Shown: positions 2,297 to 13,388 of the stretch, piece after piece
Numbering within the stretch: position 1 is the stretch's first letter
Layout: every line of letters starts with the position of its first letter
The notes under the pieces: model-generated
The model's input: the letters and a program-made list of their open reading frames with translations, nothing else
Told to the model about the DNA's origin: nothing
Database searches by the model: none
Source: an uncultured Pseudomonadota bacterium
GTDB taxonomy: Bacteria; Myxococcota_A; Bradymonadia; Bradymonadales; Bradymonadaceae
Assembly (NCBI GenBank): GCA_950059285.1
Contig: CATLTV010000036.1
Coordinates: 1-34,439, forward strand
Length of the DNA: 34,439 nucleotides
Direction: 5' to 3'
Made by a program: the position numbers and the translations under genes

Positions 2297-4693
2297 TCAT
2301 GCCTGAATGTCATGCACATTTCTGAGAGTATACTCAGTATTTACACGGTCCAACAATCCATTCTCACATGCTGCTCTGATTCTATTACTTAGAGCCACAC
2401 CACATTCAGTAAAGCCCAACTCTGCATCCAAGTAATCTTTGATGTCACGAGCAGAAAAAGAAGAGTATTCTTTAATGTAATTTTCAAATGCTACATCAAG
2501 AGGATCCTCTCCAATCTCTTTTCTCATAACGGCTTTTCCAGCAAGCCCCGTCGATACATCATCCTGCTCATGAAAAATTCCCCACAATATCTCAGGCCCA
2601 TCTTCACGAGCGAGCAAAAAGCATGCTGCTGGATCATCATCAAGATTTTCTAATGCGCGATAAATACCAATGGGGGAGTCTTCAGGCAGGTTGTTCTTCA
2701 CAGCCTCAATAACCCCCAATAGAAAAGACTCGGTCAGGCCAATATTTTTGCGATGGATAAAGCGAGACTTACCTATATACACAATATCAGCTGATTTGAC
2801 CAACGACTGGCGAGCGCTTGCATCACTGGTTTCAATACCATGCTGAATGAGTTGCTCATAAATTTCAGCATCCACAACAACCCCTCCAAATGACTGAACT
2901 ATATCTTCTATTTGCTCAGTGAGCGTGGCCCGTTCCAGACCACTTCCTGCTGGCGCAAGCTCTGTATTTGAACCCTTGAATGACTTCAAATCCTCACGAC
3001 GAGCCAGGGTATAATGGAGCAGTGCAGTAGAAATCACTGCATCCATGGTGCCATCACTCAAAAGTTCCTGACGAAGATCTTCCACGTCAACTATTGCAGC
3101 TTGTTCGTGAATACGTTGTGCTGCGATCTCGGCAACATCAAGCAAGTCCTGCTCATCCACGGGTAAGTGATCTCGATGGATGTAAAGACCCTCCTCAAGG
3201 CGATACACAAGCTCTGTGCGCTGCAAGTGACAGTACACATGTCCCACATCGGGAGCATCAAGATCGCGTGTATACGACTGATAGAGTTCGGCAATCTCGG
3301 ACAATGACAGAGGCTTTAAGCTACGCTCTATGGCCGCTGCGTACAGGCGTCCTTCTGTCACACCAAGGTTACGCCAGGAAGTTTCATCTTCACGAGGATA
3401 GTCGAGCAACTCATCCAGCAACACGGTTAATGCTGCATCTTCCAACTCAATGGCAAACTCAGACTCAAGACAGGCCTTGGCCTGGTATAGCCTGATCTGG
3501 CGGAGTGGCAAATCTTTGAGCACGCTATCTATTTCTTTCAACAGATCTTCCCTCGTATCCGCTGTCAATCCACAACACAAGGCATTGCCATAAATTCTCG
3601 CATCACGACCTAGAACATCCATGGCAAAGAGTAACTCCCAGGTATCCTCATCACCTGGAGAAAGCTCCAGAGCGCGCTCCAGATCGAGCAATCCCGAGTT
3701 GTCATCAAGCACGGAGAGAAAGGGACCTAACAGCTCGTGAAATGCTTCAAAATAGAGTGCGGCTGCATCTTGAACCACCTTGTCTAGCCGCTGCCTGACA
3801 CGCTCTCGTGTCTGCCCCATATCCTGCCCAAGCTCTTCCAATGTAGCACCATCACGATACCGACGACGCACAAGAATCCTGTCAACAGGAACCAACTCAT
3901 CAAGGATGCGCTTGACGCCATCTCTGGTGCTGGTCGGCTTGCCTTGCTCACCAAACAGGTAGTACGAAAGACCATGCTCAGCCAGCATCTTGACATGTGC
4001 GCTGATCTCGTCGCGTGATGTGTTACCCACACCGTCAAGATGTTTGAGTTGATGCTTCTCAACCATCTCTATCACATGGGCCAAATCAGCCTCGATCTTC
4101 TCAAGCGCATTCGTGGGGCGTGTGGAAAGCTTGCGTAGAACCTCTGTAGCTGGGCGAGACACATCCACGCCATGCGACTGAATTTTCTCACAAATTGAGG
4201 CACCTAAATTGGGACACTCACCTTGATGCATTACACGAGCTTGCTTGATCAACTCGGTAATCACCAAGACCTTGTTTCGTCCAACTCCTGGCTGTTGATC
4301 AAGCGTAGCCTCATCCAAACCCAGTAAATCAAACCATGTCTTCACGCCCAAACGAGACAACGTAGTACGGCCAAGACCACTGATACCTCGAGGATCGATC
4401 TCCTGAAACACTGGGTGATGACCAGGAAGAACCGTAATCAAGTCCTCTTCTTTGTGAGAAGACATACGCCGCGCTCTAAAAATTAGACTCTGCAGCGCAG
4501 CAAATTTATCTGCATCAAGACCTGATGTGTGCCTGAGTTGCTCTTCATCCAACGCAAGCAAATCCTGCCAAGTATACACACCCAAGTTCTGCAACATAGT
4601 CGCATCAAGGCCATCTTTCACCTCAAGCGCCAGAGACATCTTCATGGAGTTGACGACTTGTTGTTCTTCCGATTTAAATATCTCATTCTGCAT
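2297..4693 (-). CDS. RpoA-CTD-like/HhH plus sigma-70 region 4-like DNA-binding protein of the R-M island
   Basis: A 798-aa protein. Residues about 33-75 and 104-155 are two helix-hairpin-helix units of the RNA polymerase alpha-CTD type (pattern LGVYTWQDLLALD and LGVKTWFDLLGLD, followed by GVGRNK). A third HhH-like GVG loop lies near 221. Residues about 265-310 look like sigma-70 region 4.2, with LEELG then TRERVRQRLDK. The remaining ~480 residues have repeated features suggesting tandem winged helices, each ending in a strand such as GLYIHR, KSRFIHR or EYTLRN. The frame is open to a GTG at 4714, but GGAGG 9 nt before the ATG at 4693 makes that the better start. It is the last gene of the island, 209 bp after the peptidase gene. 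DNA binding is likely by family. A role in transcription of, or defence by, the R-M locus is inference. Confidence 0.85.
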   Translation of the reverse strand: MQNEIFKSEEQQVVNSMKMSLALEVKDGLDATMLQNLGVYTWQDLLALDEEQLRHTSGLDADKFAALQSLIFRARRMSSHKEEDLITVLPGHHPVFQEIDPRGISGLGRTTLSRLGVKTWFDLLGLDEATLDQQPGVGRNKVLVITELIKQARVMHQGECPNLGASICEKIQSHGVDVSRPATEVLRKLSTRPTNALEKIEADLAHVIEMVEKHQLKHLDGVGNTSRDEISAHVKMLAEHGLSYYLFGEQGKPTSTRDGVKRILDELVPVDRILVRRRYRDGATLEELGQDMGQTRERVRQRLDKVVQDAAALYFEAFHELLGPFLSVLDDNSGLLDLERALELSPGDEDTWELLFAMDVLGRDARIYGNALCCGLTADTREDLLKEIDSVLKDLPLRQIRLYQAKACLESEFAIELEDAALTVLLDELLDYPREDETSWRNLGVTEGRLYAAAIERSLKPLSLSEIAELYQSYTRDLDAPDVGHVYCHLQRTELVYRLEEGLYIHRDHLPVDEQDLLDVAEIAAQRIHEQAAIVDVEDLRQELLSDGTMDAVISTALLHYTLARREDLKSFKGSNTELAPAGSGLERATLTEQIEDIVQSFGGVVVDAEIYEQLIQHGIETSDASARQSLVKSADIVYIGKSRFIHRKNIGLTESFLLGVIEAVKNNLPEDSPIGIYRALENLDDDPAACFLLAREDGPEILWGIFHEQDDVSTGLAGKAVMRKEIGEDPLDVAFENYIKEYSSFSARDIKDYLDAELGFTECGVALSNRIRAACENGLLDRVNTEYTLRNVHDIQA

Positions 4694-4816
4694 TGTAACG
4701 TTCCTCCCATACACGGTATTAATGAAGACTTACAGCGGTTAAAATAATTGTGTACGGGAGCTGACTGGCCTGAAGGTGCGAGAGCTGTGTCGAAAAATCA
4801 GCAGCAGTACAAGGTA

Positions 4817-4902: not shown

Positions 4903-5643
4903 TCAACTCATAAACATATGAGCCTTCCTATCTAACCTATGCTTGACCTCCTTCCAGCCAGGCAAGACCTGCGAAAGCAAACTGTAAAAACGGTCGCTGT
5001 GGTTGTGTTCTGCGATGTGACACAGCTCATGCAAGATCACATAATCAATGCACTCACGTGGTGCCTTCACAAGGTGCACGTTCAAGGTCAATGCCCCCGT
5101 AGGTGAGCAATTGCCCCACTGTTTGGTCATGAACATCGTCTTGAACTCGGGCTTGTCATCCACCCAGAGCGCCTGATCCAGCATCGCATCCAGTCGTCTG
5201 TCAAAGACCTGCTCGGCGCGCTCCTTGTACCAGGCATTAAGCAAGTGCTTGATCTTACTCACCTCTCGTGAGCGTGTGTGAACCTCAAACTTGCCTCGCA
5301 ATAACTTCACGCCCTGAGGTGTATGTCGATCCACGTCCACAACCTTCAAGGTGTGTTGACGGCCCATGTAATAATGGCTCTCTCCACTCAGGTAGCGTCG
5401 CGCCAAAACATGTTCCTGACTATCCTTAAACTCCTCAAGTTGCTTGTAAATCCAGCGTGCACGTTTTCTCACTGCACCCAAGACCTCATCGTGTGAAGCA
5501 TGTGGCGGGGCCATCACCTCAACCTCACAGCTTGGATGCACCTTGATCAATACACTCCTGGTATTATGAGGCCGATCATGACGCTGGAACACAATGCGCT
5601 CATCGCCATACATCAAGCTTGCGCTGTCATAACGTGTTCCCAT
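4903..5643 (-). CDS. YgjP-type (DUF45/M48-like) zinc metallopeptidase of the R-M operon
   Basis: A 246-aa soluble protein with the zinc-peptidase signature HELCH (H205, E206, H209) followed by NHSDRFY, where H215 is the likely third ligand. Ahead of it is KQWGNCSPTGALTLN, matching the (R)WGSCS...LN motif of the YgjP/DUF45 family. The family is predicted to be a metal-dependent peptidase, and such genes are commonly found next to type I restriction genes, but a substrate is not established. The ATG at 5643 directly abuts the hsdR stop (TAA then ATG, 0 nt apart), so it is translationally coupled to hsdR. Length is normal and the catalytic residues are intact. Confidence 0.9.
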   Translation of the reverse strand: MGTRYDSASLMYGDERIVFQRHDRPHNTRSVLIKVHPSCEVEVMAPPHASHDEVLGAVRKRARWIYKQLEEFKDSQEHVLARRYLSGESHYYMGRQHTLKVVDVDRHTPQGVKLLRGKFEVHTRSREVSKIKHLLNAWYKERAEQVFDRRLDAMLDQALWVDDKPEFKTMFMTKQWGNCSPTGALTLNVHLVKAPRECIDYVILHELCHIAEHNHSDRFYSLLSQVLPGWKEVKHRLDRKAHMFMS

Positions 5644-8600
5644 TTATGCACCTGCCCTCATCATCTGCACCACACGTTCCACGACATTTTTCACTGGTCC
5701 CATATCATGACAGGTCTTGAACATCATGGGAAGCAGCTCTCGCCTGACTTGCGCCTCGATGTTGTCCAACTTGACCGAGTGTGTGCGTTTTGCCCTGTTA
5801 ATGATGTGCTCGGTCTCAAAGGCAAGCTCCACCCACTCCTGTTCGCTAATCTTGGATTGCTCCTCAAAAAAGCGCGACAGCTCAAGCTTAAAAATACCAT
5901 ATATTGCCTGTGGATACACATGACCCACAAGTGCCTTGGGAATATCATCAACCTCCCGATTCTTGACCTTTTCCTCAAACTCGCGAAACAGCATGTATTG
6001 CTTGAGTGGATGATCAAACAACGCCTCGGCCTCCTCGATGGCCTGCCTTAACAGCTTTGAAAACTGCTCCTTGGCGTAAGGATCATCCTGAAGTTCCTGC
6101 TCAATCGTGCGCGTCAGACGAGTCTTGATGAGGTCGGTTTCATTACGCACCTTTTCGGTGCTCCACTCCTCGGGGTCTTGCGACTGCCCCATCTTGCCAA
6201 CCTCATATACCCCCTCTGGCTCGGCGATGCCGATACCCACCACATGCTTGTCGAGCAATCGCTTGATGCTCTCCTCGTACTGGTCGTAACTGACCGTTTC
6301 CCCAGCGTCTTGCTTGACGAGCTGGCGAAGGTTTGAGAACTGCTTGATCGTCTCCTTGTAATGTATGCGATCCTCCTCTGTGAAGCTGCTATCCTCAAAG
6401 AATGAGACCGATTGCAAGGCAACCTTGAGGCAGGTTGAAAATGCCCCCAGAGCCTCATAGAAATCTTCACGATTTTTAAGGTTTACATCGACCATCTCGC
6501 CACTCTCACTTTCTTCCATACGCGGAATAAGCACTTGCCTTAACTGCTCAAAATCACGTTTATTTTTCACGCCATCAAACACAGCCCAGAGTTTCTTGTA
6601 AAGCCCTGGCAAGCGCTTGTACTCGGTGCTCATCTGGTTGTACAAACCTTCAAGATCGTTGATGTCATAACCGCCCTGTGTATGGGCTGCGAGATCCTGG
6701 TATTTCTCAATGGTCGTATCGAGCTCGGAGAGGATGCCTCGGTAATCAATGAGCAGTCCAAACTCCTTCTTCTCGTGGAGTCTGTTCACGCGCGCAATGG
6801 CCTGAATCAGGTTGTGCTCTTTGAGTGGTTTATCAATGTAGAGCACCGTGTTGTTTGGTGCATCAAAGCCAGTGAGAAGCTTGTCGACCACAATAAGCAT
6901 CTTGAGCGGATCGCGTTCATCATTGAAGCGCTCGATCATCTGCTTTGTGTAAATCTGCTCGTCGAGGGTGCCCACGTTGTCTTTCCACCAGCGCACAACC
7001 TCGGGGGTATCTTCCTCTTCAACGGAGGTGTGCCCCTCTCGACTGTCTGGCGGGCTCATGATCACCGCAGATTCAAACAGGTTGGCCTCATCAAGATACT
7101 CCTTGTATTTGATTGCAGCGCTCTTGCTGTCTGTGGCGAGCTGGCCCTTTAAACCCTCGGTAATATTTTGATCAAAGTGATTGGTGATATCGAACGCGAT
7201 CAGGTAGATACGACCATCACTTTGATAAATATGACCTTTTTGCGAATACTTACGCTTGAGGTCAAGCTTTTGCTCCTCGGTTAACGAGCGCGTAATGCGT
7301 TCAAACCAGGAGTCAATGCCACGGTCATTCACATCGAGTTCGGGTTTGCGCTCCTCGTATAACAATGGCGTCACGGTGCGATCCTCCACCGCGCGTTGCA
7401 TGGTGTACGCATGCACAATGGGACCAAACTTGTTGGTGGTCTTGTCATCCTTGAGGAGTGGCGTACCTGTAAAGGCCACAAACGAGGCATTGGGGAGCGC
7501 CTGCCTCATGCGTGTATGGTTCTCACCGTTTTGACTGCGGTGCCCCTCGTCGATGAGCACAATCATATCTGCGCTATCATTGTGACATTCGGGCAGTTTG
7601 GTCGCCGTGTTGAACTTCTGGATCAGTGAGAACATAATGCGCTCATCGCCTTTTCCGATCTGTTCAGCCAGTCGCTTTCCACTTGTAGCCATTGCGCTCA
7701 GGCGATCCTTTTTCGACGCAAGCTCGCCGCCAGATGCGAAGGTGCTGCTCAGTTGGTTTTCAAGATCAACCCTGTCCGTGACCACAAGCAATCGACATGA
7801 CTTGAGCGCGTCGTGGAAGATCAGCGACTTGCTTAAAAAGACCATCGTAAACGACTTGCCCGAACCTGTGGTGTGCCAGATCACACCTCCCTGGCGACCT
7901 CCATCGGGGCGTTTGATTGAGATACGTTCAATCAGGCGCTTGATACCAAAGACCTGTTGATAACGTGCAACGATCTTGCCTACCTTCTTATCAAAGAGCG
8001 TAAAGTAGCGCACCATGTCGAGTAATCGCGCGGGGTCGAGCAAACTGATCACCATGCGGTCCTGGTCGGTCAAAGCGAGCGCCCCGCCGCCAAGCAGCTC
8101 TTCATACCAACGCCTGTAATGTTCAGAACGATGCCCAAAGATAGCATTGATCTGCCCCGCACTCAGCGGCCCGTTTTTGATCCTCTCCATGTCGTCATCA
8201 TCAAAGTCCTCCTCTCGCCAGGTCGCCCAGAACTTCATGGGCGTGCCTGTGGTGGCGTAGCGTCCTTCAATACTGTTAATGGCGAGTAGAAGCTGACTGT
8301 ATACAAACAGATGTGGGATCTCGTCGTTCTTTTGATTGCGCAGAGATTGCGAGATGCCTTCCTCGATCGTGGGTCTGTGATCATGCTTGTGCGAGTCGGG
8401 GCGCTTTGCCTCGATCACCACCAAAGGTAAACCATTGACAAACAACACAATATCAGGACGCCGGCAATCCTTTCTTCCGATTCGCCTGACGCTAAACTCA
8501 TCAGTGACATGGAGTTTATTCTCAGTGGGATTGTCCCAATCAATAAGTGGAATGGTGGCGTGCACCTTCTTACCATCCACAAATTCCGTGACCGTGATGC

Positions 8601-8910
8601 CATAACAGAGGTGGTTGTAGAGGGTTTCATTGGCGTGAAGGAGCCCCTGATTCAGAGCAGGTCGGCAGAGTTGAGAGATCAGGTTATCCACCGACTTTTT
8701 GGAGAGCGTATAAGACGTTCCCGCGTGCACAAACTGTCGTGTGGACAGGACATCACGCAACACATCCTTCAGCACGACCTCATCGAGCTTTCCACCACGC
8801 GCATCGTTGGCCTGTTGAGGTGAGAGGTAAGTCCAGCCAAGGTTTGCAAGCAGTGTAAGTGCTGGAATCTTGGCGCTGTATTCTTCCTGAAGTTTGGGTG
8901 CCGTGGTCAT
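5644..8910 (-). CDS. hsdR: Type I restriction endonuclease subunit R
   Basis: A 1088-aa motor/nuclease subunit of a type I R-M complex. The N-terminal PD-(D/E)xK nuclease shows RPDIVLF (D153) and VIEAK (E167, K169). The SF2 translocase follows: Walker A TTGSGKS (347-353), motif II DEGH (454-457), motif III FTGTP and motif VI near QAIARVNR. The C-terminus is helical and probably binds the M2S core. It cleaves DNA after ATP-driven translocation when the M2S site is unmethylated. The frame is open to 8967, but GGAG 7 nt upstream of the ATG at 8910 fixes the start. It lies 73 bp after hsdS and is coupled to the peptidase gene. All key motifs are intact, so it looks functional. Confidence 0.97.
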   Translation of the reverse strand: MTTAPKLQEEYSAKIPALTLLANLGWTYLSPQQANDARGGKLDEVVLKDVLRDVLSTRQFVHAGTSYTLSKKSVDNLISQLCRPALNQGLLHANETLYNHLCYGITVTEFVDGKKVHATIPLIDWDNPTENKLHVTDEFSVRRIGRKDCRRPDIVLFVNGLPLVVIEAKRPDSHKHDHRPTIEEGISQSLRNQKNDEIPHLFVYSQLLLAINSIEGRYATTGTPMKFWATWREEDFDDDDMERIKNGPLSAGQINAIFGHRSEHYRRWYEELLGGGALALTDQDRMVISLLDPARLLDMVRYFTLFDKKVGKIVARYQQVFGIKRLIERISIKRPDGGRQGGVIWHTTGSGKSFTMVFLSKSLIFHDALKSCRLLVVTDRVDLENQLSSTFASGGELASKKDRLSAMATSGKRLAEQIGKGDERIMFSLIQKFNTATKLPECHNDSADMIVLIDEGHRSQNGENHTRMRQALPNASFVAFTGTPLLKDDKTTNKFGPIVHAYTMQRAVEDRTVTPLLYEERKPELDVNDRGIDSWFERITRSLTEEQKLDLKRKYSQKGHIYQSDGRIYLIAFDITNHFDQNITEGLKGQLATDSKSAAIKYKEYLDEANLFESAVIMSPPDSREGHTSVEEEDTPEVVRWWKDNVGTLDEQIYTKQMIERFNDERDPLKMLIVVDKLLTGFDAPNNTVLYIDKPLKEHNLIQAIARVNRLHEKKEFGLLIDYRGILSELDTTIEKYQDLAAHTQGGYDINDLEGLYNQMSTEYKRLPGLYKKLWAVFDGVKNKRDFEQLRQVLIPRMEESESGEMVDVNLKNREDFYEALGAFSTCLKVALQSVSFFEDSSFTEEDRIHYKETIKQFSNLRQLVKQDAGETVSYDQYEESIKRLLDKHVVGIGIAEPEGVYEVGKMGQSQDPEEWSTEKVRNETDLIKTRLTRTIEQELQDDPYAKEQFSKLLRQAIEEAEALFDHPLKQYMLFREFEEKVKNREVDDIPKALVGHVYPQAIYGIFKLELSRFFEEQSKISEQEWVELAFETEHIINRAKRTHSVKLDNIEAQVRRELLPMMFKTCHDMGPVKNVVERVVQMMRAGA

Positions 8911-8983
8911 GTGTACTCTCCTTTTATTGAGGTGAAAGGGGCGGGCATTGAAGCCGCCTCCTTTCACCTCGACAACGTATCAA

Positions 8984-10210
8984 TCAATCCAGGGATAACG
9001 TGAGTTGTGCTTGGGCCGCCTCTTCATCCTTCACCTTGTAAGAGTCACTGGGATCCCCCTCACTGACACTTTCATCCACAATCACACGTCGTTTTCCCGT
9101 AAGAAGTTGCTGCATCAACGCCTTCTTTTCGAGTTTGAGCGCCTCAAGCTTTTGCTCATAAAGCTCAATCTCACGATCAGCATCATTCAACACTTCTGCG
9201 ATTGCTTTTTGTTCATCCAGACTAGGCAACATTATAGGCATATTTTTAAACATCGGAAGCCTTAGGGACTTAACAGTAGAGCCAACGGCTTTAGATAAGA
9301 AGTAATTTTTGAACTTAAGAATATAGTAATATAAATATTTACCAAAAATAACATCCGAGCTCGGCATCACAGCATACGTTCTTTGATGAAGACCAAACTT
9401 TCCACAGAAATACTTAGGAGAAAAATCCTGACCTTCTCCAGGAACAATTACAACTTCGGAATCATACAAATAATCATCACTAAACATTAAGTCTTCAGAT
9501 CTATCAAAAAACATATAAAGACCATTTGGATTACAATCCGCTCGATTTGACTTTCCAGTCGATATATTTGCAATAGTACCAAGCTTCACAAATATAGTTC
9601 CGCTCAACTTACTAGATGGAGTCGTACTTAATCCGAAGAAATGTTGCATCAACGCTTTTTTCTGCAACCTACTGCATTCAATCAACTTTTCAGTCGTTTG
9701 AATCGCATCATCCCAGGTGGACAAGATCTCTGCGATCTTCTTTTGTTCGGCGAGCGGTGGGAGGAGAATTTTAATCAGCCTTAACGACTTGATAGATATT
9801 TCCTTAAAAGTACTACCTTGACTTTTAACACTCATTTTATTTTTGACTTCATCACTTTCAATTGCATAGTATGCATAAAGATTATCAACATCATCACCAA
9901 AAGAAAGAAGCGCAGTACCCCTAGTTAAATTTGCACCGTTCAACGCATCAGGAACAATTGCAACATCTCCAATATTGCCTCTTAATGATAAAACCAAATC
10001 TCCAGAAACGACTGAAGTCCGTATATACTTTTCATGTATCAGATTTGAAGTTCTCCCTAACCTATCAACACTACTCAAATCGTTTAAATCTGAACATTTA
10101 ATATAAGGAACCCCTCCAGGAATATGTGGTCCAGCTTGCACAATTCCATAACATATCTTCTTGTCACAAGCATCTTGTAACCTAACTCTTTTCCAACCTT
10201 CAGGCATCAT
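8984..10210 (-). CDS. hsdS: Type I R-M specificity subunit S
   Basis: A 408-aa protein with the classic two-TRD layout: TRD1 at about residues 5-148, conserved helix 1 from PPLAEQKKIAEIL through KKALMQ (about 150-190), TRD2 at about 203-326, and conserved helix 2 from PSLDEQKAIAEVL through KKALMQQLLTGKRR (about 328-370). Each TRD recognises half of a bipartite site and the helices bind HsdM. Both TRDs are visibly A+T-rich compared with the helices and with hsdM/hsdR, which suggests TRD exchange. The SD AAGGAG (10218-10223) lies inside the duplicated HsdM tail and favours the ATG at 10210; the ATG at 10207 and the TTG at 10216 are alternatives. The start overlaps the tail stop (ATGATGCCTGA), implying translational coupling. 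Confidence 0.95.
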   Translation of the reverse strand: MMPEGWKRVRLQDACDKKICYGIVQAGPHIPGGVPYIKCSDLNDLSSVDRLGRTSNLIHEKYIRTSVVSGDLVLSLRGNIGDVAIVPDALNGANLTRGTALLSFGDDVDNLYAYYAIESDEVKNKMSVKSQGSTFKEISIKSLRLIKILLPPLAEQKKIAEILSTWDDAIQTTEKLIECSRLQKKALMQHFFGLSTTPSSKLSGTIFVKLGTIANISTGKSNRADCNPNGLYMFFDRSEDLMFSDDYLYDSEVVIVPGEGQDFSPKYFCGKFGLHQRTYAVMPSSDVIFGKYLYYYILKFKNYFLSKAVGSTVKSLRLPMFKNMPIMLPSLDEQKAIAEVLNDADREIELYEQKLEALKLEKKALMQQLLTGKRRVIVDESVSEGDPSDSYKVKDEEAAQAQLTLSLD

Positions 10211-10319
10211 AACCAAGCTCCTTCAAGTAACGACCCATATTGTCTTCAAGGCGAGCCATCTCGGTGAGGAGGGCTTTACGCTCGGTGCGGACGGCGACGA
10301 GGTCGATCTCTTCTTCTTC
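10195..10319 (-). repeat. Direct repeat copy A of the hsdM 3' end
   Basis: This 125-bp block matches 11141-11265 in the same orientation with five mismatches by eye. Weaker similarity continues with a 3-nt indel to about 10333. It ends sharply at AACCTT (10195-10200); beyond that the two copies are unrelated. Together with the second copy it brackets hicAB. Confidence 0.9.
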
Positions 10320-10361
10320 AAACGTGTCAACGTAAGTCTCAAGATTAATATACAATTTCAT
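10200..10361 (-). CDS. 53-aa mini-ORF: duplicated HsdM C-terminal tail
   Basis: The last ~44 residues closely match the HsdM C-terminus (VDTFEEEEID... to RYLKELGYDA), with one Glu fewer and one Ser-to-Gly change; most base differences are synonymous. The first ~9 codons differ. An ATG at 10361 has a good SD (GGAGG, 10371-10375, spacing 9) that is itself built from the end of hicB (CGG AGG TAA). The stop TGA overlaps the hsdS start codons, as in normal hsdM-hsdS junctions. It cannot methylate DNA. It may be translated only to deliver ribosomes to hsdS, or be an inert remnant. Confidence 0.7.
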   Translation of the reverse strand: MKLYINLETYVDTFEEEEIDLVAVRTERKALLTEMARLEDNMGRYLKELGYDA

Positions 10362-10367
10362 CAAAAT

Positions 10368-10721
10368 TTACCTCCGATAAGCAAGGCGAGCAACGATGAG
10401 TTGGTTTAGGCTTACTCCTTGGCGAGCTGCATCCGCAGCAAGCTCACGGTGCAAGTCTTTGGGGAGTCGCACATTGAAGCGCCCGCTGTAATCCTTCTTG
10501 GACAATGGCTCTGGAACACGATCGCCACTTTCCACAATATCTTCAATCACATAACCCACCACCGCCTTAATTTCGCTCAGAGCATCCTCAGGTGAATCGC
10601 CATGAGCTGCAAGTGAGGGAAATTCGGTGACCCTGCCCACATAAAGCTCATCCTCTTCGCTCCATGCTACACGGTACTCATAGTCATTTGCGCTGTAGTT
10701 AGTCGTTGTTGTCGTCGTCAT
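10368..10721 (-). CDS. hicB: HicB-family antitoxin
   Basis: A 117-aa protein. The N-terminal HicB (partial RNase H-like) fold shows YRVAWSEEDELYVGRVTEFPSL followed by AHGDSPEDALSEI. The C-terminus is a ribbon-helix-helix DNA-binding domain (SGRFNVRLPKDLHRELAADA, then GVSLNQLIVARLA). It neutralises HicA and normally autoregulates the operon. The frame extends to 10892, but the ATG at 10721 has GAGG 6 nt upstream and overlaps the hicA stop by 23 nt, as expected for a coupled pair. Its last codons supply the SD for the HsdM-tail mini-ORF, so hicB is physically fused into the hsdS expression signals. Confidence 0.92.
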   Translation of the reverse strand: MTTTTTTNYSANDYEYRVAWSEEDELYVGRVTEFPSLAAHGDSPEDALSEIKAVVGYVIEDIVESGDRVPEPLSKKDYSGRFNVRLPKDLHRELAADAARQGVSLNQLIVARLAYRR

Positions 10722-10962
10722 AAAGGGCCTCATGTTTTTTGAGCGCTGCGATGACTTGGCGTACCTGGTATGGTGCCGCCCGCCCTCCTCGTTGCGCCTG
10801 GAGGTTGATACGTGGATCACCTTGCCAGGGTGTCCGAAAGATATGGTGTGAACCTCGTATTCGAGGCTCACCAAAAAAGTGTGTGCACACATTTACCAAG
10901 CGTGCAAAGCGGACATTTGAAGGAGAGCTTTCAAGTTCAGTAATCGCTTGAGCGATATCCAT
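10699..10962 (-). CDS. hicA: HicA-family mRNA interferase toxin
   Basis: An 87-aa protein with the HicA signature GSHHIFRTPW (His39/His40; the GSH histidine is the family's catalytic residue) and a basic, dsRNA-binding-like C-terminal helix. HicA cleaves mRNA when freed from HicB. The key histidine is present. The C-terminus ends in an acidic DDDNND tail, because it overlaps the Thr-rich start of hicB in another frame. The SD is weak (ACGAG). The pair lies between hsdM and hsdS and has its own candidate promoter at 11101-11128. Confidence 0.9.
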   Translation of the reverse strand: MDIAQAITELESSPSNVRFARLVNVCTHFFGEPRIRGSHHIFRTPWQGDPRINLQAQRGGRAAPYQVRQVIAALKKHEALYDDDNND

Positions 10963-11026
10963 AATGATTCTCGTTGTGTGTAAATTCTTTTATTCATGAT
11001 TAACAACGTTCTCTCCTTTGAAGTGG

Positions 11027-11097
11027 CAGTTGTCGGGGCAATTGCAAAAACTGGGGATCGATTTGAATCCAGATTAAACCAGTGAACCACCGACAAC
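11027..11097. promoter_or_regulatory. Inverted repeat in the hicAB leader
   Basis: GTTGTCGG and CCGACAAC are perfect inverted 8-mers about 50 nt apart, between the candidate hicA promoter and the hicA start. In RNA they could close a long stem-loop in the ~130-nt leader. I see no further clear base pairing, so the function is uncertain. Confidence 0.35.
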
Positions 11098-11100
11098 CAC

Positions 11101-11128
11101 ATAGTACCATATATAGTACCACAAGCAA
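11101..11128 (-). promoter_or_regulatory. Candidate hicAB promoter with overlapping direct-repeat operator
   Basis: On the minus strand TTGCTT (11128-11123), 16 nt, TACTAT (11106-11101). The octamer GGTACTAT occurs twice at 12-bp spacing (11120-11113 and 11108-11101), covering the spacer and -10 element, which fits an autoregulatory HicB site. It lies just past the hsdM stop, within the inserted segment. Confidence 0.5.
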
Positions 11129-11140
11129 GAGAGGCAAGCT

Positions 11141-11265
11141 AACCTTCAGGCATCATAGCCAAGCTCCTTCAAGTAACGACTCATGTTGTCTTCGAGGCGA
11201 GCCATCTCGGTGAGGAGGGCTTTACGCTCAGTGCGGACGGCGACGAGGTCGATCTCTTCTTCTTC
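11141..11265 (-). repeat. Direct repeat copy B: true 3' end of hsdM
   Basis: This partner of 10195-10319 lies inside and just past the full-length hsdM gene. It still carries the SD and ATGATGCCTGA of the ancestral hsdM-hsdS junction, but the hsdS frame then stops after five codons (MMPEG, then TAG). That marks the point where hsdS was separated from hsdM. Confidence 0.9.
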
Positions 11266-12669
11266 CTCAAACGTATCGACATAACGTGGGATGTTGAGGT
11301 TGTAATCGTTCTCTTTGATCTCATCGTGTGTGGCGAGATACGCGTACTTGTCGACGGTCGTGCGGTCACGGAAGGTTTTGACGATGCGGTTGATGTGCTC
11401 CTCTCCCAGAATGTTCTGGTTTTTGCCAGCATCGTAGGTGTTGCTGGCGTCGATAAACAACACGGTATCGTCGGTCTTCTTTTTTCTGAAAATAAGGATC
11501 GCAGCAGGAATGCCCGTACCATAAAAGAGCTTCTCGGGGAGCCCGATGACGGCATCAAGCAGGTTCTCTTCGATGAGCTTCTGGCGGATCTTGCCTTCAC
11601 GCGATCCTCTGAAAAGCACGCCGTGGGGAACAACGACGCCCATGCGCCCGCTGCCCGACTTCAGGGTCTCTATCATGTGAAGAATAAAGGCATAATCGCC
11701 CTTTGTCTTGGGTGGCACACCTCGCTTGAACCTGCCAAACACGTCGTCGGCTGCTTCATCATGCCCCCATTTGCTGAGACTAAACGGAGGGTTAGCGGTC
11801 ACGATGTCGAACGTCATGAGGTTGCCATTTTTATCAAGCAACTTGGGGCTCCTGATCGTGTCGCCCCACTCGATCTTGTGGTTATCCTCGCCGTGCAAGA
11901 ACATGTTCATCTTGGCAAGTGACCAGGTGGAACCAATCGCCTCCTGACCATAAAGAGCGTAGTGCTTGCTGCCATCGTGATTTGACTGGATCTTCTTGCC
12001 ACACTTCATCAACAACGAGCCCGAACCACAGGCAGGATCACAGATCGTATCACCAGGCTGAGGATCAAGCAGCTCGGCGATCAAGTCGCTGACTTCGGGT
12101 GGAGTATAAAACTCGCCTGCTTTCTGGCCACCGCTTGCGGCGAAGTTCTTGATCAAATATTCGTAAGCGTTTCCAATCACATCGAGCGTCCCCACACGAC
12201 TTGGGCGCAAGTTAAGCTCGGGCTTGGCGAAGTCCTCAAGGAGGTGGCGCAGGATGGTGTTCTTCTGCTTCTCCTCACCGAGCTTATCCGTGTTAAACGA
12301 GATATCCTGAAAGACACTCTTGCCTGCATCCTTGAGCTTGGTCCCATTGGCCTCCTCAATGGCGTGCAAGGCGAGGTCGATGCGCTCACCGTTGCCAGGC
12401 TCATGGCGCTGATCATAGAGCGCTTGAAAGCTGGCTGATTTGGGGAGCACAAAGCGCTCATTTTTCATCATCTCCTCGACGAGCTCGGGCGCATCGCCGT
12501 ACTCCTGTTGATAACGCTCGTAATCATCCTGCCAGACATCCGAGATGTACTTGACGAACAACATGGTGAGGATGAAGTCCTTGTAGGTGTCCGCGCTGAT
12601 CGTACCACGGAAGGTATCACAGGCCGCCCAGAGGGCGTTGTTAATGCTGTCTTGACTGATTTGCTTCAT
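11146..12669 (-). CDS. hsdM: Type I R-M N6-adenine methyltransferase subunit M
   Basis: A 507-aa protein. The N-terminal helical HsdM domain starts with ALWAACDTFRG and runs through FVKYISDVW. The SAM-binding motif I is DPACGSGSL (211-219) and the catalytic motif IV is NPPF (293-296). The C-terminal helix (VRTERKALLTEMARLED...) contacts HsdS. It methylates adenine in the host site as M2S. The start is supported by GGAG 8 nt before the ATG at 12669. It lies 72 bp after the single-TRD gene. Its 3' end is duplicated at 10195-10319, and its natural partner hsdS now lies ~930 bp further downstream, beyond hicAB. Confidence 0.97.
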   Translation of the reverse strand: MKQISQDSINNALWAACDTFRGTISADTYKDFILTMLFVKYISDVWQDDYERYQQEYGDAPELVEEMMKNERFVLPKSASFQALYDQRHEPGNGERIDLALHAIEEANGTKLKDAGKSVFQDISFNTDKLGEEKQKNTILRHLLEDFAKPELNLRPSRVGTLDVIGNAYEYLIKNFAASGGQKAGEFYTPPEVSDLIAELLDPQPGDTICDPACGSGSLLMKCGKKIQSNHDGSKHYALYGQEAIGSTWSLAKMNMFLHGEDNHKIEWGDTIRSPKLLDKNGNLMTFDIVTANPPFSLSKWGHDEAADDVFGRFKRGVPPKTKGDYAFILHMIETLKSGSGRMGVVVPHGVLFRGSREGKIRQKLIEENLLDAVIGLPEKLFYGTGIPAAILIFRKKKTDDTVLFIDASNTYDAGKNQNILGEEHINRIVKTFRDRTTVDKYAYLATHDEIKENDYNLNIPRYVDTFEEEEEIDLVAVRTERKALLTEMARLEDNMSRYLKELGYDA

Positions 12670-12741: not shown

Positions 12742-13359
12742 TCAGGGTGATGGCTCAAGGTCCGAGGCGAGCGCGTCAAGGAGGAGTTCACCCTGAGAGA
12801 TGAGCTGTTGGGCGATGTGTTGTTGTTGTCGAATGGTGTCCACCAGTGCACTGATCGTGTGTTGTCGAGGCAATGGAGGGACGGCGATGGGAGTGTGCTC
12901 AAGGATCTTACGCTTGATACTACGCGTAACAGATCCCTCGCTGTGAGAGAGGAAGTAACGCTGCGCAGGGAGGCTATTAAGATACCAGGCGAGGAATGCA
13001 GGCGTGACCTGAGTCGTTTGAGGTAGGCGAATAATATAGAAGTAGGGAGCGGCGACAGCTTTGAGAGGTTGCTCAAGGAGCTGTTCACTGATCAGAACCG
13101 CGTAGGGAGGATCAGCGCGCGCTGCAAAGAGGATATCATTTGGCTGGAGCCAGTCGGGGTCGCGCTTCCCTGGGAGCGTGGTGCGTGTACACGAGGACCA
13201 CTCAACGCCTTGCCCAACAGAGACATTACTCATTTGCACAACAATGGCATCAGGATCTTCGGTGTCGTGGATGCGACCACGAAAAGGGTAGCCAATGGCG
13301 ATGGTGGAGAGCTTTGAAAGCTTTGTATGTTTTACTGGTGTAGTTTTTGAAGAAGACAC
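12742..13359 (-). CDS. Half-size, single-TRD HsdS-like protein
   Basis: A 205-aa protein resembling one half of a type I specificity subunit: a TRD-like region (about residues 10-150, including WLQPNDILFAARA and YLNSLPAQRYF) followed by one conserved-helix region, VPPLPRQHTISALVDTIRQQQ... to GELLLDALASDL. A normal HsdS has two of each. It is the first gene of the operon, upstream of hsdM. The frame is open to a GTG at 13368, but GAGG lies 8 nt before the GTG at 13359, which I prefer. It could act as a half-subunit that dimerises, as an alternative specificity with HsdM, or as a modulator. It is not an obvious remnant, since the frame is intact. Confidence 0.8.
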   Translation of the reverse strand: MSSSKTTPVKHTKLSKLSTIAIGYPFRGRIHDTEDPDAIVVQMSNVSVGQGVEWSSCTRTTLPGKRDPDWLQPNDILFAARADPPYAVLISEQLLEQPLKAVAAPYFYIIRLPQTTQVTPAFLAWYLNSLPAQRYFLSHSEGSVTRSIKRKILEHTPIAVPPLPRQHTISALVDTIRQQQHIAQQLISQGELLLDALASDLEPSP

Positions 13360-13388
13360 AGGGCACACCTCTTTGTTAATTGCCTATG

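Follow-up and report, generated by a model that had tools for sequence, protein, structure and literature searches.

The stretch of DNA analysed here, referred to below as the window (34,439 nucleotides), carries on its minus strand a type I restriction-modification system with hsdM, hsdS and hsdR together and intact; Pfam, NCBIfam and PADLOC match all three. The gene order on this strand is half-HsdS-like gene, hsdM, hicA, hicB, hsdM-tail copy, hsdS, hsdR and YgjP-like peptidase gene, and the region comprises the following features.

12742–13368, minus strand: conserved half-HsdS-like gene upstream of hsdM, 208 aa (PF01420, 4.1e-5)
11146–12669, minus strand: hsdM, complete, 507 aa (PF02384, 1.3e-108; PF12161; TIGR00497 hsdM, 290.7 bits)
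11141–11265, minus strand: hsdM-side repeat copy, with the hsdM end and a vestigial hsdS start (MMPEG, stop)
10963–11140, minus strand: hicAB leader with an operator-like site
10699–10962, minus strand: hicA-like toxin gene, 87 aa, with a GSHH motif
10368–10721, minus strand: hicB antitoxin gene, 117 aa (PF05534, 3.4e-15)
10203–10361, minus strand: stand-alone HsdM-tail ORF, 53 codons, its stop overlapping the hsdS start (open frame 55 aa, versus 513 aa for hsdM)
10195–10319, minus strand: hsdS-side repeat copy, with the hsdS initiation region (AAGGAG-N7-ATG) and the first hsdS codons
8984–10210, minus strand: hsdS, complete, 408 aa (PF01420, 1.6e-39)
5644–8967, minus strand: hsdR, 1107 aa (PF04313, PF18766; TIGR00348, 491 bits)
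4903–5643, minus strand: YgjP-like metallopeptidase gene, the last gene of the operon (PF01863, 6.5e-54)

The half-HsdS-like gene has relatives (24–49% identity) at the same position in 74 other fetched loci and thus looks like a conserved extra gene of such operons, not a decayed hsdS. At the other end, an SprT/YgjP-type gene occupies the same operon position in Vibrio and Komagataeibacter plasmids. Positions 2297–4714 of the minus strand encode an 805-aa protein that matches Sigma70 region 4 and, weakly, the RNA polymerase alpha CTD. The GC content is 0.385 in hsdS and 0.53 in hsdM; low GC is common for specificity genes, which get exchanged.

The end of hsdM is present twice, as direct repeats at 10195–10319 and 11141–11265, each of 125 nt, with 96% identity and five mismatches that leave exact runs of 17, 22, 3, 8, 35 and 35 nt. 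A repeat of this length and identity far exceeds what chance would give. Misassembly is an unlikely source of it, since the two copies are not identical and are flanked by different, unique sequence. In the hsdM-side copy hsdM is intact and is followed by a dead five-codon hsdS start, which has the same ATGs as the other copy and terminates after MMPEG, while the hsdS-side copy retains the overlap of the hsdM stop with the hsdS ATG. Between the repeats lie hicA (10962–10699) and hicB (10721–10368) with an operator-like, presumed promoter region of their own. The repeat, the hicAB pair between its copies and the contrast between the two hsdS starts had been noticed in the preliminary description and are borne out by the analysis, the repeat exactly as described. 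Homology of the hsdS-side copy extends further, in frame, beyond 10319 to about 10341, with one codon gap and three further synonymous differences.

The inserted pair is a HicAB-like module. The HicB domain is recognised with 56 bits against a cutoff of 21 (PF05534). The HicA_toxin match of 14 bits is under the 27-bit Pfam cutoff, and the tentative assignment of hicA is made on the GSHH motif and on hicB-adjacent relatives: relatives of hicA adjoin hicB in genomes of the phylum, with 33–62% identity. Relatives of both proteins occur within the host's own family, HicB reaching 56% identity. The operator-like site GGTACTATATATGGTACTA (11101–11121) is situated shortly downstream of hsdM; the relatives L104, L105, L107, L109 and L112 have similar sites upstream of hicA. 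Its distance from hicA is about 140 nt in the window and far shorter in relatives such as L104. A scan of the hicAB leader for promoter-like patterns gave no excess over shuffled sequence. It seems that hicAB brought a control region along; downstream of this region lie hsdS and hsdR, which may be expressed from the hicAB promoter.

The hsdS-side copy is at the same time an intact ORF of 53 codons (10361–10203, minus strand) that encodes MKLYINLETYVDTFEEEEIDLVAVRTERKALLTEMARLEDNMGRYLKELGYDA and ends in a stop codon, a feature beyond those given in the preliminary description. Its ATG comes after GGAGGTAAATTTTG at the hicB stop: the last hicB codons, CGG AGG TAA, supply a Shine-Dalgarno-like GGAGG, and the ATG stands 9 nt further on. 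Relative to the resident hsdM the ORF has eight substitutions, seven of them synonymous and one non-synonymous, and one in-frame codon indel. In simulations of neutral drift of the copy after a local duplication, one non-synonymous change or fewer was obtained in 0.1–0.5% of the runs (P about 0.001–0.005); neutral decay of a locally duplicated copy is thus disfavoured. Given how rarely neutral simulations yield so few non-synonymous changes, the copy either diverged within a complete hsdM allele or has had its reading frame maintained, and the synonymous pattern does not separate the two.

The copy is nearest to its own hsdM (35 of 39 nt), other tails compared reaching at most 30, and of the copies that match HsdM along their whole length it is the longest seen. 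The tail DNA, sought in the rest of the genome as a further copy or a donor, is absent there. A search with the tail peptide through 190 genomes from the phylum and 369 from the class of L007 identified no short tail ORF besides that of the window. The plasmid matches that were opened contained only full hsdM ends or one IS5-cut hsdM, and phage matches to the tail were few and weak. In the IS5 case (L088, a Klebsiella plasmid) the transposase gene stands directly before the last hsdM codons, and hsdS is preceded by a tail remnant only.

The state of the junction in relatives was taken from 136 distinct loci of this HsdM family (135 besides the window), one genome per species. The hsdS gene was called by its C-terminal motif, by which 103 loci were scored and 33 remained without placement; some starts are mis-assigned (e.g. 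L065, L084, L171). At 78 of the 103 scored loci hsdS overlaps or directly follows hsdM, a typical junction being GGTTATGGTGCCTRA. These empty sites, for which the preliminary description had called, are thus the usual state, and they support its claim that hicAB was inserted at an ancestral hsdM-hsdS overlap. The window itself has both marks of a coupled junction, the stop/start overlap and a Shine-Dalgarno within hsdM.

The sequence just before the overlap is constrained in the family. A Shine-Dalgarno-like motif stands 4–14 nt before the overlapping ATG in 108 of 109 hsdM ends that have this ATG, versus 10 of 25 ends without it. The Glu codon of the ELGY motif is GAG in 103 of 109 cases; elsewhere in the C-terminal region the figure is 871 of 2083 (42%; p = 1.8e-30). 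Genes with a preference for GAA likewise have mostly GAG at this codon, 35 to 3. The near-universal motif together with a GAG bias that persists even in GAA-preferring genes indicates that selection acts on a nucleotide signal inside the hsdM coding sequence.

The remaining scored loci have cargo between hsdM and hsdS: Fic, RhuM-like, a 286-aa family, DUF1016-like and, in the window, hicAB. The names of the cargo other than hicAB rest on sequence recognition, not on a Pfam scan. Many of these loci have a short stretch resembling the HsdM end before the displaced gene, for example VAKYLEELGYGA or EMAKYLKEMEYGA, each followed by a stop. With a frame-anchored profile, a tail copy immediately ahead of the next gene has a score above 0 at 15 loci, the window and fourteen others. 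The best score among 30,803 other ATG sites in the same loci is −4.8, the one exception being the own hsdM tail of L135, which is mis-anchored. Thus the check proposed at the outset, for other genes inserted with the same tail copy, gave fourteen further loci with different cargo. Short and eroded copies were detected only by this profile and by inspection of the sequence ahead of hsdS; a BLAST comparison across 80 relatives, aimed at long tail copies, returned the window alone.

The copies take several forms. In the Fic loci the copy is joined to Fic as a C-terminal fusion, and in L022, L025, L031, L055, L134, L145 and L172 it is a stand-alone tail ORF of 28–58 codons. They begin at variable points, from under ten to about 50 codons, and every copy directly before hsdS ends in the same stop/ATG overlap. 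Most of the other loci have a copy that is closer to other hsdM tails than to their own (rank of the own tail 13 to 114). Thirteen cargo loci were scored as having no tail, several of them with a mis-assigned start, and where tail similarity is absent a GGAG-like site before hsdS is mostly retained. In the cargo loci L018, L022, L025, L044, L057 and L066 the hsdM end has lost the ATG and/or the Shine-Dalgarno, which the copy retains, as expected if this function had moved to the copy.

L172 (G1114:C145) has two tail ORFs of about 40 codons in one operon, one between the DUF1016-like and RhuM-like genes and one before hsdS. The first of them has 36 identical nt at the coupling end and several amino-acid changes upstream. 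The locus resembles a small cargo array with tail copies as separators. Cargo and tail copy are common to L022, L031 and L055, and L055 has a different hsdS after the identical junction, which suggests that hsdS may have been exchanged at or after the tail copy there.

We consider it likely that the duplicated hsdM end re-couples the displaced hsdS to the inserted hicAB. In this family hsdS begins within the 3′ end of hsdM, so that the last hsdM codons double as protein code and as the hsdS initiation region, with its Shine-Dalgarno, start codon and stop/start overlap. Because the end of hsdM carries the Shine-Dalgarno of the overlapping gene, a functional reason absent from the preliminary description, an insertion would need this stretch twice: an insert at the overlap would disable translation of hsdM or of hsdS unless the shared stretch flanked it on both sides. 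In the window the insert, hicAB with an operator-like promoter region of its own, follows codon 5 of the old hsdS start, and the second hsdM tail stands ahead of the working hsdS. Ribosomes completing hicB could then begin the tail ORF from the GGAGG that the last hicB codons supply and, where the stop of the tail ORF overlaps the hsdS start, re-initiate on hsdS, so that hsdS and hsdR would be tied to the hicAB transcript. Translational coupling across the hsdM-hsdS overlap is described for EcoKI (PMC3510504; PMC6158711). The duplication, the tail ORF, the embedded Shine-Dalgarno, the empty sites and the recurrence with other cargo can be read from the sequences directly; we infer that coupling is the reason for which the copy is kept. 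Against coupling alone stand the length of the copy, 53 codons where about ten suffice for the Shine-Dalgarno and the overlap, and the mostly synonymous differences, which coupling does not require. The cargo loci in which no tail peptide is recognisable and the promoter scan, with its chance-level outcome, also count against it.

The same length and substitution pattern bear on another reading, which we think unlikely, namely that the product of the tail ORF is the reason for its retention. A free HsdM C-terminal tail docking on HsdS might either hold HsdS until HsdM arrives or compete with HsdM and so limit methylase or restriction assembly. The docking is known from PacII (7vru), the closest solved relative, in which the HsdM tails and HsdS form a four-helix bundle and deletion of the tail abolishes assembly (PMC9613975); the window HsdM aligns to the PacII M subunits up to the tail. 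The window copy encodes the whole of the corresponding segment, with its seven synonymous differences to one non-synonymous and the low neutral P given above, and stand-alone tail ORFs recur in the seven other loci. Elsewhere, however, only the last ten or so codons, which bear the Shine-Dalgarno, are recognisably conserved, and the first tail ORF of L172 is identical at the coupling end and changed upstream. An excess of synonymous differences is, moreover, also expected if the copy derived from another full-length hsdM allele. A broader version, which we regard as improbable, is that free-standing HsdM-tail ORFs are a recurrent small gene of cargo-bearing type I R-M operons that couples a displaced hsdS to an insert while its product docks on HsdS and tunes methylase assembly; an inserted toxin-antitoxin module would then control how much restriction enzyme is made as well as how it assembles.

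Re-coupling by the duplicated end, the reading that we prefer, is compatible with several origins of the copy. Campbell-type homologous integration is a conceivable but rather doubtful one; here a circular DNA with hicAB and a tail from a related hsdM allele would have recombined into the resident tail, so that a tail came to lie on either side. It would account for direct repeats with 35-nt exact runs, for synonymous differences such as exist between alleles, and for the density of differences at the 5′ edge of the copy, where 3 of 8 fall in the first 9 nt (P about 0.01). Yet no donor allele was found, the tail DNA being present nowhere else in the genome and no close hsdM in the 190 relatives, and the nearest of the tails compared is that of the own hsdM. 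The resident and the working hsdS starts, furthermore, share few nucleotides past the hsdM stop, so that tail homology alone leaves the left breakpoint unexplained. Integration of this kind, put forward in the preliminary description, is thus no more than possible. The accompanying proposal that the second tail came from another hsdM allele fares similarly: neutral drift after a local duplication is rejected as it implied, but the differences do not tell another allele from a retained coding ORF, and the own hsdM has the nearest of the tails compared.

The copy could instead be a local duplication of about 150 bp made in an illegitimate, repair-associated insertion of hicAB, a scar kept only for its last codons; we rate this as possible rather than probable. 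The two copies in the window are mutually best matches (35 of 39 nt, the next best 30), and the same is true of the first L172 copy, while the variable copy length in relatives is as expected for illegitimate breakpoints. The substitutions, seven of eight synonymous, and the frame-preserving indel speak against it, with the neutral simulation at 0.1–0.5%. The synonymous pattern favours Campbell-type recombination or selection on the frame, whereas the best-match result favours a local duplication.

A site-specific event at a gene end had also been considered in the preliminary description; a small mobile element would have integrated at the end of hsdM, comparable to integrative elements at the ends of tRNA or protein genes. 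It would fit with different cargo at the same position and with a target whose end is restored by a copy that the element carries. We nevertheless find it very improbable: only hicA, hicB and the tail ORF lie between the repeats, with no recombinase in the 946-bp unit; the variable starts and lengths of the copies between loci leave no fixed attachment core; and at most other loci the best match of the copy is a tail other than the resident one.

Recombination between the 125-bp repeats could restore the empty site precisely, and a toxin-antitoxin cargo would tend to select against such a loss of hicAB. As for the operon itself, HsdM is about 84% identical to gammaproteobacterial proteins, and a match to the tail is present in only 3 of the 190 genomes sampled from the host's phylum, the host included; the R-M operon was thus probably acquired horizontally. 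The HicAB relatives in the host's own family, where hicA adjoins hicB, are weakly consistent with hicAB having joined the operon later than the R-M genes.

If this reading holds, there would be a concrete rule for the entry of a gene into an overlapping, translationally coupled pair: entry requires a second copy of the stretch that the pair shares, and such a second copy would mark past insertions even once eroded. It would offer a simple explanation of how defence operons take up toxin-antitoxin, Fic, RhuM and other cargo at the hsdM-hsdS junction with activity retained. No account of a duplicated hsdM tail accompanying inserted cargo came up in a literature search, which is weak evidence of novelty, as most subscription journals lie outside its coverage.

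As in the EcoKI type I operon (PMC3510504), hsdS of the window starts within the end of hsdM, with a stop/start overlap; unlike in EcoKI, this overlap is duplicated and flanks the hicAB insert on both sides. EcoprrI, with the anticodon nuclease gene prrC within a type IC operon (PMC3874165, PMC12707154), is comparable in having a toxin gene inside its type I operon; the cargo of the window is HicAB-like. With HicAB modules the pair shares the hicA-hicB order with overlap, the PF05534 HicB and the operator-like site upstream; it differs in sitting between hsdM and hsdS and in a HicA under the Pfam cutoff. Elements that integrate at gene 3′ ends also leave a gene end on both sides of the insert, whereas the window has neither a recombinase nor a fixed core, and the restored part also holds the initiation site of the next gene. 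Finally, in the model of Type IB evolution of Roberts et al. 2012, DNA of the HsdM tail moved into hsdS and was duplicated (PMC3510504). Natural operons with the HsdM tail duplicated before hsdS are related to the duplication assumed there: tail-coding DNA is doubled directly upstream of hsdS, and hsdM retains its own. In Type IB systems the tail is fused to HsdS and HsdM is shortened, while in the window HsdM keeps its tail and the extra tail is a separate ORF, unfused to HsdS, that came with an inserted gene. The arrangement is, by this analogy, at most a possible Type IB intermediate.
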